NCBI RefSeq assembly: GCF_014859565.1
Contig: NZ_JACUUA010000152.1
Coordinates: 1 to 7,879 of the forward strand
From: Marinospirillum sp.
Lineage (GTDB): Bacteria; Pseudomonadota; Gammaproteobacteria; Pseudomonadales; Halomonadaceae
Direction: 5' to 3'
DNA length: 7,879 nucleotides
The position numbers were made by a program, and so were the translations under genes. The notes below the pieces were generated by a model. The model saw nothing but the letters and a program-made list of their open reading frames with translations, had not been told where the DNA came from and did no database searches. Below are positions 1-7,407 of the stretch, in pieces. Positions within the stretch are counted from its first letter, which is position 1, and every line of letters begins with the position of its first letter.

Positions 1-2
1 CC

Positions 3-1148
3 AGGGATGAGCTGAACTCAATGAAAATACGTGTTTCTGGATGGGCACTAACTAATACATTGGAGCTGTCTGATCAGACAGCGCAATCACTCATGCACCG
101 GGTTGAAGGCGCAGAAGTTCAAGCTATTAATTTGCAGAATCCTGAAGACGAGCCTGTTACCGTCCCAGGAACCCAAGTTGCAGGTGTAGAAACAGGTTAC
201 TTCGAGCTTCCTTCAGCATTACAGAAAGAGGGGCTCTGGCTGCTCTATCCAGCTCCGGCGTCAGAGATTTATTTTCGTCCTAAAATCCATATTCCTGATT
301 TTAATTACTGCACCCCAACTGATGATACGTCAGTCTCTACTCTGAACGCTGCTGCACGCTACTACCATCCTATAGAGTGTAGGGGTATTTTCAAGCCGGT
401 ACTCAATGCGATGGCTGAAGATTTTTTCCATAGCAGTTGGTTGTACCTGATCCAGCTGAAAAAGCGTTGTGAGCATATTCCCTTATCAGCCTTTGAGTGC
501 TGGAAGGCTTTAGCCCGTCATCCGGAAGCGATGGCACTGGCTGTTTTTCGTCTTGAAATGGACAGTCTTTTTGTTGAACGCCTAAAACACGAGTTAGCCG
601 TAATCTGGGAAGTGGTAACACCAAGACAGTGGCGGAGGGCGTTACAACGCTACATACGGGGTATGGTGTACCAGTTTGGCTTGCTGGAATCCATGATTAC
701 AGAGCAGGCACGCAGTAAATTGGAGCAATTAGCTGCACATATACCAGTTTTTCGCTCGTTCGGTGAGCTACTAATCTGTGATACCCCCGCACCTATGTTG
801 CCTTTAGAGGCTGTTATTCCACTTTGGCAGAATGATCTGCGTACACGCCATGATGCAGCAATCTGGCCGGAAGACCTCAGTGAAGAATTGTGTATCTGGT
901 TGGCTCAACAGCCGGATTACCATTGGTTTAATGAGTCTTCGTTACCTTGGTATATGAAGCCAGTCATTCTGATGCCGGTATTCACTGCTCACCTTTCTGC
1001 CGGTAAAGCATCGCTGAGTCAATTACAGACCAGTGAAATAGCTGTACGTTCAGCTATTAGTGTTTTGACGGACTTTGACCGTCACGCTTGGTACGAACCA
1101 GTCTACTCCGCTGTACTTACTAACCTGCTGCAACCATATACCCCATAA
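3..1148 (+). CDS. Druantia-like accessory protein upstream of the helicase, possibly 5'-truncated by the window edge
   Basis: The product has no enzymatic motif, signal peptide or membrane segment that I can see, so it is probably cytoplasmic. The first 90 or so residues look beta-rich and end in a GLWLLYPAP...FRP segment. The rest looks mainly helical, with many Trp, Leu and Arg residues (for example HIPLSAFECWKALARHPEA and the following WEVVTPRQWRRAL). The first in-frame ATG is at 21, preceded by a weak purine run (AGGGATGAG, 3-11). From that ATG the protein has 375 residues. The frame is also open upstream to base 3, so 21 may be an internal Met. The gene stops 13 bases before the giant DruE-like helicase, implying one operon and a shared role. 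By context it is a Druantia component: the C-terminal part of a DruH-type protein (STY4851/ECs_5259-like, usually around 1000 residues), which I slightly favour, or a complete DruD-type protein. The biochemical function is unknown. Confidence 0.75.
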   Translation, partial: RDELNSMKIRVSGWALTNTLELSDQTAQSLMHRVEGAEVQAINLQNPEDEPVTVPGTQVAGVETGYFELPSALQKEGLWLLYPAPASEIYFRPKIHIPDFNYCTPTDDTSVSTLNAAARYYHPIECRGIFKPVLNAMAEDFFHSSWLYLIQLKKRCEHIPLSAFECWKALARHPEAMALAVFRLEMDSLFVERLKHELAVIWEVVTPRQWRRALQRYIRGMVYQFGLLESMITEQARSKLEQLAAHIPVFRSFGELLICDTPAPMLPLEAVIPLWQNDLRTRHDAAIWPEDLSEELCIWLAQQPDYHWFNESSLPWYMKPVILMPVFTAHLSAGKASLSQLQTSEIAVRSAISVLTDFDRHAWYEPVYSAVLTNLLQPYTP

Positions 1149-7100: not shown

Positions 7101-7407
7101 GGTGCTCAGACATTGGTTATCTGCAGTGTTGGATATTAAACCCAATATTGAACTCCACTCAGAGTTGCAAGAGGTCAGCCATCGCCGTGTTCTGACGTTA
7201 ACACTGGAGTCTGGTAAAGAGCTTAAATTGGCTTTTGATCAAGGCATGGGCTATTGGAACAGCTCTGATCTGCACTACGAGCTTCGACTACATAATTTCG
7301 AAGCTTCAGGGGCTGAACAGGCACAGCGGATGATGGATGCTTGGAAAAAAGCAAGCTTAGTGAATACTGGAGACTGGCCGACAGATATTGCTGTTTATGA
7401 AGCTTAA
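1162..7407 (+). CDS. druE: DruE-like giant SF2 DEAH helicase with DUF1998/MZB zinc-binding region (Druantia anti-phage defence)
   Basis: A 2081-residue ATP-dependent SF2 helicase, presumably acting on nucleic acid in the cytoplasm. Visible motifs in order: a Q-motif-like YKHQ (99-102), Walker A TGTGSGKT (121-128, K127), motif Ia YPLNAL (159-164), motif Ib TNATMLEY (226-233), DEAH (259-262) and SAT (296-298). A cysteine-rich insertion follows (C446, C447, C452, C475, C477, C487, C490, then C582/C585). The second RecA-like lobe starts at TFTDSRQ (644-650) and resumes, after an insertion of roughly 400 residues, with EHSAQ (1059-1063), STTMEMGVDIG (1087-1097) and QRAGRAGR (1116-1123). Next come LPGYGFP (1303-1309), a four-Cys ribbon (1399/1402/1420/1423), further Cys at 1506/1509, the DUF1998-like YDHVAGGAGF (1633-1642) and C1663, C1667, C1671, C1674. 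Residues 1690-2081 match nothing I recognise. All helicase motifs are intact and I see no frameshift. About 2000 residues plus DUF1998 is the hallmark of DruE; shorter relatives include MrfA/YprA and DISARM DrmA. The helicase class is near certain; the Druantia assignment is inferred from size and context. Confidence 0.85.
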   Translation: MTGYFKDLITQSLSRTREATLSILGVNDPGLRAHLADQMHNRMGDEGCFLAPPVFEHTFGWKQGDQTFASLKGELLSNSVVETLASAKKYQFQPDLKPYKHQLESWRTLLAEQPKSAVITTGTGSGKTECFMIPILQDLVREHETSQKALVGVRALFLYPLNALINSQRERLDAWTEPYGENIRFCLYNGNTKESESTVRKTQKERPNEILSRERLRKEPAPILMTNATMLEYMLVRQIDDPIIRISQELGALRWIVLDEAHTYVGSQAAELSLLLRRVVEAFGKQASELRFVATSATIAGESAAQKLQAYLADLAGVPNEQVVVIGGSRQVPDLKQSLDIKGSLAEIRQVDQGEVISADRFQLLCNHPVSYEIRHALISSEKPLDLNDLIFKVGHLLTATGKAEQQQELLEWIDLMTDTQPIENEPPFLKLRGHLHQRMLHGLWCCADPNCTAKSTHLKNWFFGQVYVTQRTRCECHAPVYELAFCDDCKTPHLIAEDANGFLRHTNPFAGDEFSLLDDPNEDTPESEQVLYKKQQSVVLSAHQVESYPSISLNRETAELGCLSGENTLRLNIATDIDSSCSGCGDKGKRPAGFLRKCYLGAPFYVANAVPTALEFCPDPQTDDLPKNSNPESLPGRGRKLITFTDSRQGTARMAVRMQQEAERSRLRGLVFSILRNRQASENANIPELPEQSAEELLVQAEQLEQMGMSDLAKQRREQARLKEGALQTSKPVAIDWYAMVSELAACSDIKHSILDYNRYANPEFFGGYDNSLTLASLLLLREFARRPKNQNSSETLGLIAVGYQGLEKVGQIPRFWAETLAPNADNPSERTPLTLQDWKDFLKVTLDFYIRENTFLVMNDNERNWMGARFSPKELVPPKDDFQDSSRVKSWPLFKRGTQGNRLVKLLTYATELDPSSAYAADKINTWLKVAWEQLTAIQLLQNTGGRGYTVTRQAINFSLPRKAWVCPMTHRMFDTTFRSVTPYIPRSKVERNSLLCKPVQLPDYTQLAPLGVSKVLDTIRQKVAENQEIKALRADSLWSDISDRTVEGGFYYRTAEHSAQQSAQRLQQYESMFKEGKVNVMNCSTTMEMGVDIGGISAVVMNNVPPHPANYLQRAGRAGRRSEARAVAYTLCKSDPHNTRVFNNPKWAFSTAIPAPVITLEAQPLVQRHVNSYLLSAFLKTEASGTNDNTRLTTLWFFHVNEGAVSRFIDWLGSDVKHHETAVRSIIRRTALELISFEQLIGDCRERIQCLAQSWQEEYKQMNLRVNQAKDPHYKKALELEKTRHENDYLLKELATKAFLPGYGFPTNVVALNTLNIEDFKSKKAQKEADQSEREDNIFTYKEQPSRGLDIAIREYAPGAQIVIDGRVYRSAGVKLQSYHEGAGGSAQKFDLTWQCHHCGAPGYQEHAYSHSENLRCKNCNSEIHISNVKRLLRPMGFTTDFYEGSSNDVSAQKFIPVERPLVYVEGATVALPDSACGFIRFGENGQIMMRSGGEHGHGFAVCMSCGRADSMTPNQEVPKDLQPDHMHRAIGGATKGGVQKECSGERVMRDIYLGYRSRTHVVELVLRNPVTRGWIAENETGRIIAITLSVALRDAAADILGIAASEIGFGVRPDRDMDSGESRYVVQIYDHVAGGAGFVLTAIDDLSALLKKMINKLECVAECETVCSSCLASKDSRVEFEQLNRKAALEWLREGQFVMHLDLPEPFNRYAGAKYWPYEPLRFVRHWINRSAESLCFQLKGDPEQWNLNAPEFRRQLLAWKVLDSCDLTLVLDENSSLTDEIKEDLALLASSGIHLAQHRKRKDDGLLAAPLQIKDKNGSVISLLTDSSTAAKPGEHWLQADTGHTWISSESLPEWQFETLDTSNWRRTSYSSARVLEVTDELNGPINTLGQRFKKLLEDKAPEFSANLSCEKVTAIKYEDRYLRTPWAIMLLAGFMQIIPKQGVKLVCVHAVREANPQTGKFIWHNFSDYLHQEEVLRHWLSAVLDIKPNIELHSELQEVSHRRVLTLTLESGKELKLAFDQGMGYWNSSDLHYELRLHNFEASGAEQAQRMMDAWKKASLVNTGDWPTDIAVYEA

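Follow-up and report, generated by a model that had tools for sequence, protein, structure and literature searches.

The stretch of DNA considered here (the window, 7,879 nucleotides of Marinospirillum sp., contig NZ_JACUUA010000152.1) very probably belongs to a type III Druantia operon, of which it has the final third of druH and an entire druE. Of the two products, DruH is predicted to be the sensor of phage infection and DruE the enzyme that unwinds phage DNA and cuts it. The identity and the order of the two genes are demonstrated by the comparisons below, while sensing, assembly and cutting are activities that we infer for the window proteins. The locus is an ordinary Druantia III, a system whose mechanism has already been described in relatives from E. 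coli and Mycolicibacterium; the added value of the present analysis is a residue map of DruE and the assignment of its last domain as MIT_C-like.

Gene layout and identity of the locus

The druH frame (3 to 1148, plus strand) runs without interruption between the window edge and its TAA stop at 1146 to 1148. It encodes the C-terminal 381 residues of the protein, the 5' end of the gene lying beyond the left edge. As the earlier note had it, 13 bases separate this stop from the ATG of druE at 1162. Inside this gap lies AGGA (1150 to 1153, plus strand, 8 bases 5' of the ATG), which, going by its position, is likely the ribosome-binding site of druE. The druE gene itself (1162 to 7407, plus strand) is complete and encodes 2081 residues.

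The earlier note described the druE product as a DEAH helicase of this length with a DUF1998-like region, and both parts of the description are borne out. The protein contains the motifs GTGSGKTE (residues 122 to 129), DEAH (259 to 262) and QRAGRAGR (from 1116), and the Pfam families DEAD, Helicase_C, ResIII and MZB (PF09369, the former DUF1998) all score above cut-off. The RecA1/DEAD domain (PF00270, 77.8 bits), which carries the P-loop and the DEAH motif, covers residues 100 to 302 (1459 to 2067 in the window), the RecA2/Helicase_C domain (PF00271, 44.5 bits) residues 1055 to 1124 (4324 to 4533), and the MrfA Zn-binding domain (PF09369, 39.6 bits against a cut-off of 24.2) residues 1593 to 1675 (5938 to 6186), all on the plus strand. 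To this SF2 helicase core and MZB/DUF1998 domain, both of which go with type III membership, are added two C-terminal PLD-like domains on the same strand: a first one at residues 1714 to 1872 (6301 to 6777), predicted to be inactive, and a second one at residues 1873 to 2081 (6778 to 7404), MITD1-C/MIT_C-like and predicted to be the nuclease. This pair, seen in the fold search, is also that of type III, with the HxKx4D motif absent from the first domain in all 71 DruE proteins compared (see below).

The reading of the locus as a Druantia system, put forward in the earlier note, is confirmed by scoring both proteins against the PADLOC library (5027 models, 2023 version; for DruE, the best 25 of 46 matching families are considered). 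DruE matches the DruE3 model (PDLC00037) with 2389.9 bits over residues 2 to 2079 of 2081, against 551 bits for DruE1, 387 for DruE2, 349 for DruE4, 96 for DpdJ and 44 for DrmA, the last two being about 25-fold and 54-fold fewer bits than for DruE3. The upstream frame matches nine PADLOC families, all of them DruH3, the best being PDLC00050 (E 4.6e-88, 294 bits, profile positions 738 to 1095 of 1101). A full-length DruE3 is thus directly preceded by the C-terminal third of a DruH; because DruH is reported as type III-specific (PMC13192584), this order fixes the type as III, which the earlier note had left unnamed. By sequence, DruE further aligns over residues 5 to 2035 with a PDB entry deposited as "DEAD/DEAH box helicase" (9tu7, 1068 bits).

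At the other end of the window, a gene on the minus strand (7566 to 7877) converges with druE and encodes an addiction-module antidote of the HI1420 type (TIGR02684, 99.9 bits; PF21716); its match begins at profile position 11, which places its start, and any toxin gene, beyond the right edge. Between positions 7000 and 7879, promoter-like sites are absent and a single terminator-like site is seen, where chance alone would give 0.8. Searches for tRNA and Rfam families gave no match.

Published mechanism and proposed order of events

PMC13192584 describes E. coli DruE as an SF2 helicase that acts as a dimer, is loaded at 3' tails, unwinds 3'-tailed DNA and uses its C-terminal part to build higher assemblies; once purified, it cuts linear lambda DNA as well as long single-stranded DNA and introduces nicks into plasmid. 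In that account DruH probably acts as the sensor, and its dimers, which nick DNA, have an enhanced nuclease activity. For M. smegmatis, PMC13316683 reports that DruH and DruE interact and are both needed, with a minor tail protein as the trigger; over a stable DruH-DruE complex, the two reports disagree. According to PMC12458937, DruE is one of the YprA helicases and its type III form has two C-terminal PLD-like domains, the last of which is predicted to be active.

If the order of events of PMC13192584 is carried over from E. coli to the window, a late phage structural protein would likely engage DruH, whose dimers would nick replicating phage DNA or expose it. Next, a DruE dimer would load on a 3' single-stranded tail via its SF2 helicase core, further DruE would join along the strand through the C-terminal part, and the last PLD-like domain of DruE would finally cut. 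The window DruE has most of the residues that we checked in the helicase and along the single-strand path.

Conserved residues of DruE

The residue map compares the window DruE with its relatives in GTDB genomes. A genome scan with the single DruE protein found no relative; a scan with an alignment of 22 rows (A1; the window and 21 proteins from a list of 120), in which relatives are chosen by the patterns GKTECFM and TMEMGVD, gives 78 loci from the best 80 of 567 matches, which are near relatives and no random sample. Leaving out eight of these loci as cut or split, the map contains 71 DruE proteins, namely that of the window and those of 70 loci with a frame of more than 1900 residues. The numbering of the E. 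coli protein is transferred through 9tu7, where an offset of 4 fits 30 of the 32 alignable published residues (all but K97 and N1536). Since PMC13192584 gives other PDB codes, we take 9tu7 to be a separate deposit of that protein or of a close one. Mapping through the E. whittamii locus and four others was also tried and rejected, as the numbering did not fit.

Eleven residues of the ATP pocket and the single-strand path (E. coli numbering: S119, K121, N156, R165, R207, N221, R231, D251, E252, R1135 and R1372) are invariant in all 71 proteins, G118 and Y227 are kept in 70, and R1139 in 50; the conservation at these motifs is partly by construction, because the scan patterns cover part of them. 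The E. coli residues V92, E1343 and Q1477 differ in the window.

The C-terminal nucleotide pocket (R1258, N1987, Q1990 and Y1995) and the eight interface residues that we checked vary among the 71 proteins, and of these 12 published residues the window keeps only N1987. One interface position, H1415, is conserved as another residue, being Q in 65 of the 71. This divergence is not clearly below the background and is no strong evidence for a different assembly, because the C-terminal region as a whole has little identity with 9tu7 (47 of 195 residues identical in 1840 to 2035, against 139 of 286 in 5 to 310). Mutation of the pocket residue R1258 is reported to abolish the defence of E. coli Druantia (PMC13192584). 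The equivalent position in the window is D1246 and only eight of the 71 proteins have an arginine there, which argues against R1258 as a family-wide catalytic residue.

The last domain of DruE as a candidate nuclease

Only 15 columns of the C-terminal 392 residues reach 68 of 71 proteins. Twelve of these are Y1923, D1925, R1926, Y1927, P1931, H2007, R2009, D2026, Q2027, G2028, Y2031 and W2032, and 9tu7 keeps eleven of the twelve (M in place of Q2027). The invariant residues of the second PLD-like domain are Y1923, D1925, Y1927, P1931, H2007, R2009, D2026 and G2028.

By VIA-align, the fold of residues 1873 to 2081 is closest to MITD1, and the segment has the PLD-like fold of the MITD1 C-terminal domain. 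Its score for MIT_C (PF16565) is 14.2 bits, under the cut-off of 25, and the family is listed for only one of the 71 members at E up to 10. Aligned with hhalign, the segment and MIT_C are in register with P 1.1e-4 over 113 columns, at a reported probability of only 57%, while ten other segments of DruE, taken as a control, give P from 0.033 to 0.59. A corresponding link for the first PLD-like domain, at P 0.033, is rejected. A search of the PDB by sequence with the profile A2 finds 9tu7 only and not MITD1; the link to MIT_C therefore rests on the fold, the PF16565 score below cut-off, the motif of BrxL and the hhalign result. Searches with PF16565 of five and of two genomes of relatives gave nothing above cut-off.

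As for the BrxL motif, the MIT_C domains of BrxL from five loci have H-x-R-x4-D and D-R-G. DruE keeps H-x-R and, as D-Q-G, the second element, with no fixed aspartate at the x4-D place (position 2014 is E in 18, T in 13 and S in 10 of the 71). A BREX BrxL (L085, 1 to 1947; PADLOC PDLC02508, 1093 bits) has a near-terminal domain that matches PDB chains of MITD1 with E 5e-17.

A candidate for the cutting site is the invariant set centred on H2007, R2009 and D2026 (H2037, R2039 and D2056 in E. coli), three residues that are found in 71 of 71 DruE proteins and in 9tu7. In the dimeric nuclease Nuc, the site is shared between two chains. Because each DruE chain has only one such motif, two DruE molecules would likely need to pair before they cut, and cutting would in this way depend on the assembly that E. 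coli DruE forms through its C-terminal part. We tentatively propose, as a possibility somewhat on the doubtful side of even, that the effector nuclease of type III is a PLD half-site of the MITD1/BrxL type (YxDRY...HxR...DQG) with no ordinary HKD site, that two DruE C-termini must pair so that assembly on single-stranded DNA switches cutting on, and that BREX BrxL has a related module. The words "MIT" and "MITD1" are absent from the main text of PMC13192584 and PMC12458937, and the term HKD does not occur in PMC13192584, though R1258 is named there in the catalytic pocket. Among the papers listed in a literature search, none joins MITD1 with Druantia or PF16565 with Druantia, and none has both BrxL and MITD1.

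The same domain can be read in another way, namely that the pair works without cutting by DruE, which would be mainly a helicase or DNA-binding remodeller with the terminal PLD-like domain as a non-catalytic module for binding or assembly. To our knowledge, the PLD-like domain of MITD1, the closest fold, is not an enzyme. The variable residue at position 2014, which leaves only HxR of HxKx4D invariant, and the poor conservation of R1258 also fit this explanation, as do the shorter DruE of M. smegmatis (1667 residues) and the report (PMC13316683) that the helicase SftH is able to replace DruE. The cutting and nicking by purified E. coli DruE (PMC13192584) and the strict conservation of H2007, R2009 and D2026 speak against it, and we regard a DruE that does not cut as rather unlikely, though it is the best placed of the alternatives.

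The DruH fragment and its relatives

The earlier note called the upstream protein domain-less. This stands for Pfam, where the fragment has no family at E up to 1 in the copy searched, and not for other libraries: besides the nine DruH3 models, the fragment matches the NCBIfam family YjiT_fam (NF038336, 212 bits, cut-off 150). Full-length DruH relatives contain the newer Pfam families PF27205 and PF27201. Searched by sequence, the fragment alone matches nothing in the PDB at E up to 1; the full-length DruH of the Marinobacterium halophilum locus (L007) matches PDB entry 9tud, deposited as "DruH", and the profile A3, made from the window part and 53 relatives, matches residues 744 to 974 of 9tud with E 1e-10. 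The structure model of the fragment is confident (pLDDT 92.2, from 54 sequences), with a strand-rich start followed by helices, and has no PDB fold match below E 0.001, in a fold library that may not include 9tud. Across 190 aligned rows, the fragment has 26 columns with at least 90% agreement (a misaligned first residue is left out). Tryptophan or proline accounts for 12 of these, and a charged residue or histidine for six (R92, H143, R193, E197, E203 and D359 in fragment numbering). No nuclease motif is evident among these 26 columns, and no known nuclease fold is seen.

The nearest DruH C-terminus among the matches listed (P0152) is 70% identical to the window over 367 residues; this same protein is only 46% identical to the DruH of L007. 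DruH seems to diverge faster than DruE, at about 50% against 68% identity between the window and L007.

In 73 of the 78 relatives (from the best 80 of 567 matches), the DruH profile finds DruH adjoining DruE, and in the other five (L031, L042, L053, L074 and L077) the DruE match starts 26 to 532 bases from the contig start. Where a DruH hit goes with a DruE frame of more than 1900 residues, the DruH frame has 1090 to 1201 residues in 62 of 67 loci; of the five shorter frames, two are split (L012, L078), two are cut by the contig start (L058, L073) and one is unexplained (L070). Given this usual length, the remainder of druH is expected to lie left of the window.

It could be asked if the window druH is instead broken or without its 5' part, in which case the locus would be a decayed, non-functional remnant of a Druantia system. 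Only the last 381 codons of druH are visible, the window's own DruH sequence is absent from the 249 database proteins matched (two DruH searches included), and druH or druE is split or cut in some relatives (L012, L078 and L050). Against this, the druH frame is open to the window edge, the 2081 codons of druE are intact, full-length DruH frames prevail among the relatives, and a nearly identical DruE, which is the closest in the protein database, exists as a cluster of two member sequences (P0001, 2074 of 2081 residues identical). We consider decay improbable; the rest of druH probably lies to the left.

A tree of 185 DruE proteins pairs that of the window with P0019 (support 1.0) inside a clade of 21 members (support 1.0) that includes named proteins of Marinobacterium, Nitrincola, Amphritea and Halomonas/Vreelandella; an intermediate node of 20 members has a support of only 0.26. 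By this placement, the host would likely be one of the gammaproteobacteria of this group. No near-identical DNA is found in plasmids or in E. coli, and a DruE search of viral contigs gave no match.

Two observations concern the surroundings of related loci. Both Marinobacterium loci have three genes of similar sizes 5' of druH (L007, 530 to 6392; L016, 398 to 6055): one of about 520 residues with, in L007, a wHTH-PRTase-associated domain, one of about 800 residues that is PDC-M26A-like, and one of about 610 residues with no match in PADLOC (both loci) or Pfam (L007 only). The clusters of the first two also contain L018 and L026. Across the 78 loci (best 80 of 567), certain protein clusters are found repeatedly next to Druantia III, in 22, 21 and 15 loci. 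Their representatives in L001, and two in L015, are type I restriction-modification specificity, methylase and restriction subunits, in agreement with PMC13192584.

Relation to known systems

The window shares with E. coli Druantia III (PMC13192584, compared via 9tu7 and 9tud) the order of druH and druE, the alignment of DruE over residues 5 to 2035, the eleven ATP-pocket and single-strand-path residues and the two C-terminal PLD-like domains, and differs from it in 11 of the 12 published trimer-interface and nucleotide-pocket residues. The loci of Marinobacterium halophilum and M. iners (L007 and L016) likewise have adjacent druH and druE, with 68% and 67% identity to the window in DruE and 50% and 48% in the C-terminal part of DruH; their two genes overlap by 4 bases (10001 to 10004) in place of the 13-base gap. 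The type III system of Mycolicibacterium smegmatis (PMC13316683) is also a DruH-DruE pair with DEAD, Helicase_C and DUF1998 domains, but its DruE is about 400 residues shorter, its genes overlap by 17 bp and physical binding of DruH and DruE is reported. Compared with the MIT_C of BrxL and MITD1, the last domain of the window DruE scores below cut-off and has no conserved aspartate after HxR; in BREX, moreover, MIT_C belongs to the Lon-like protein BrxL, while the last domain of DruE is fused to a helicase.

That the helicase belongs to another system of the DUF1998 type (DISARM, Dpd, ARMADA or Druantia I/II) with an unrelated gene upstream is suggested only by the YprA-type core common to these systems and their low PADLOC scores, and can be dismissed given the DruE3 score over the whole length, the type III-specific DruH neighbour and, for ARMADA, whose helicases end in a Vsr-type nuclease (PMC12458937), the two PLD-like domains at the end of DruE; no ARMADA model is among the best 25 of 46 PADLOC families, in a 2023 library that may have none.

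The locus adds one more type III Druantia to those known. In the comparison with 70 relatives, every aligned DruE keeps the ATP and single-strand path and the MIT_C-like set around H2007, R2009 and D2026, while the trimer interface and the R1258 pocket of the E. coli structure are features that the relatives do not keep. With the residue map, the place and timing of cutting by DruE become open to tests on single residues, and DruE is linked to a domain of BREX BrxL.
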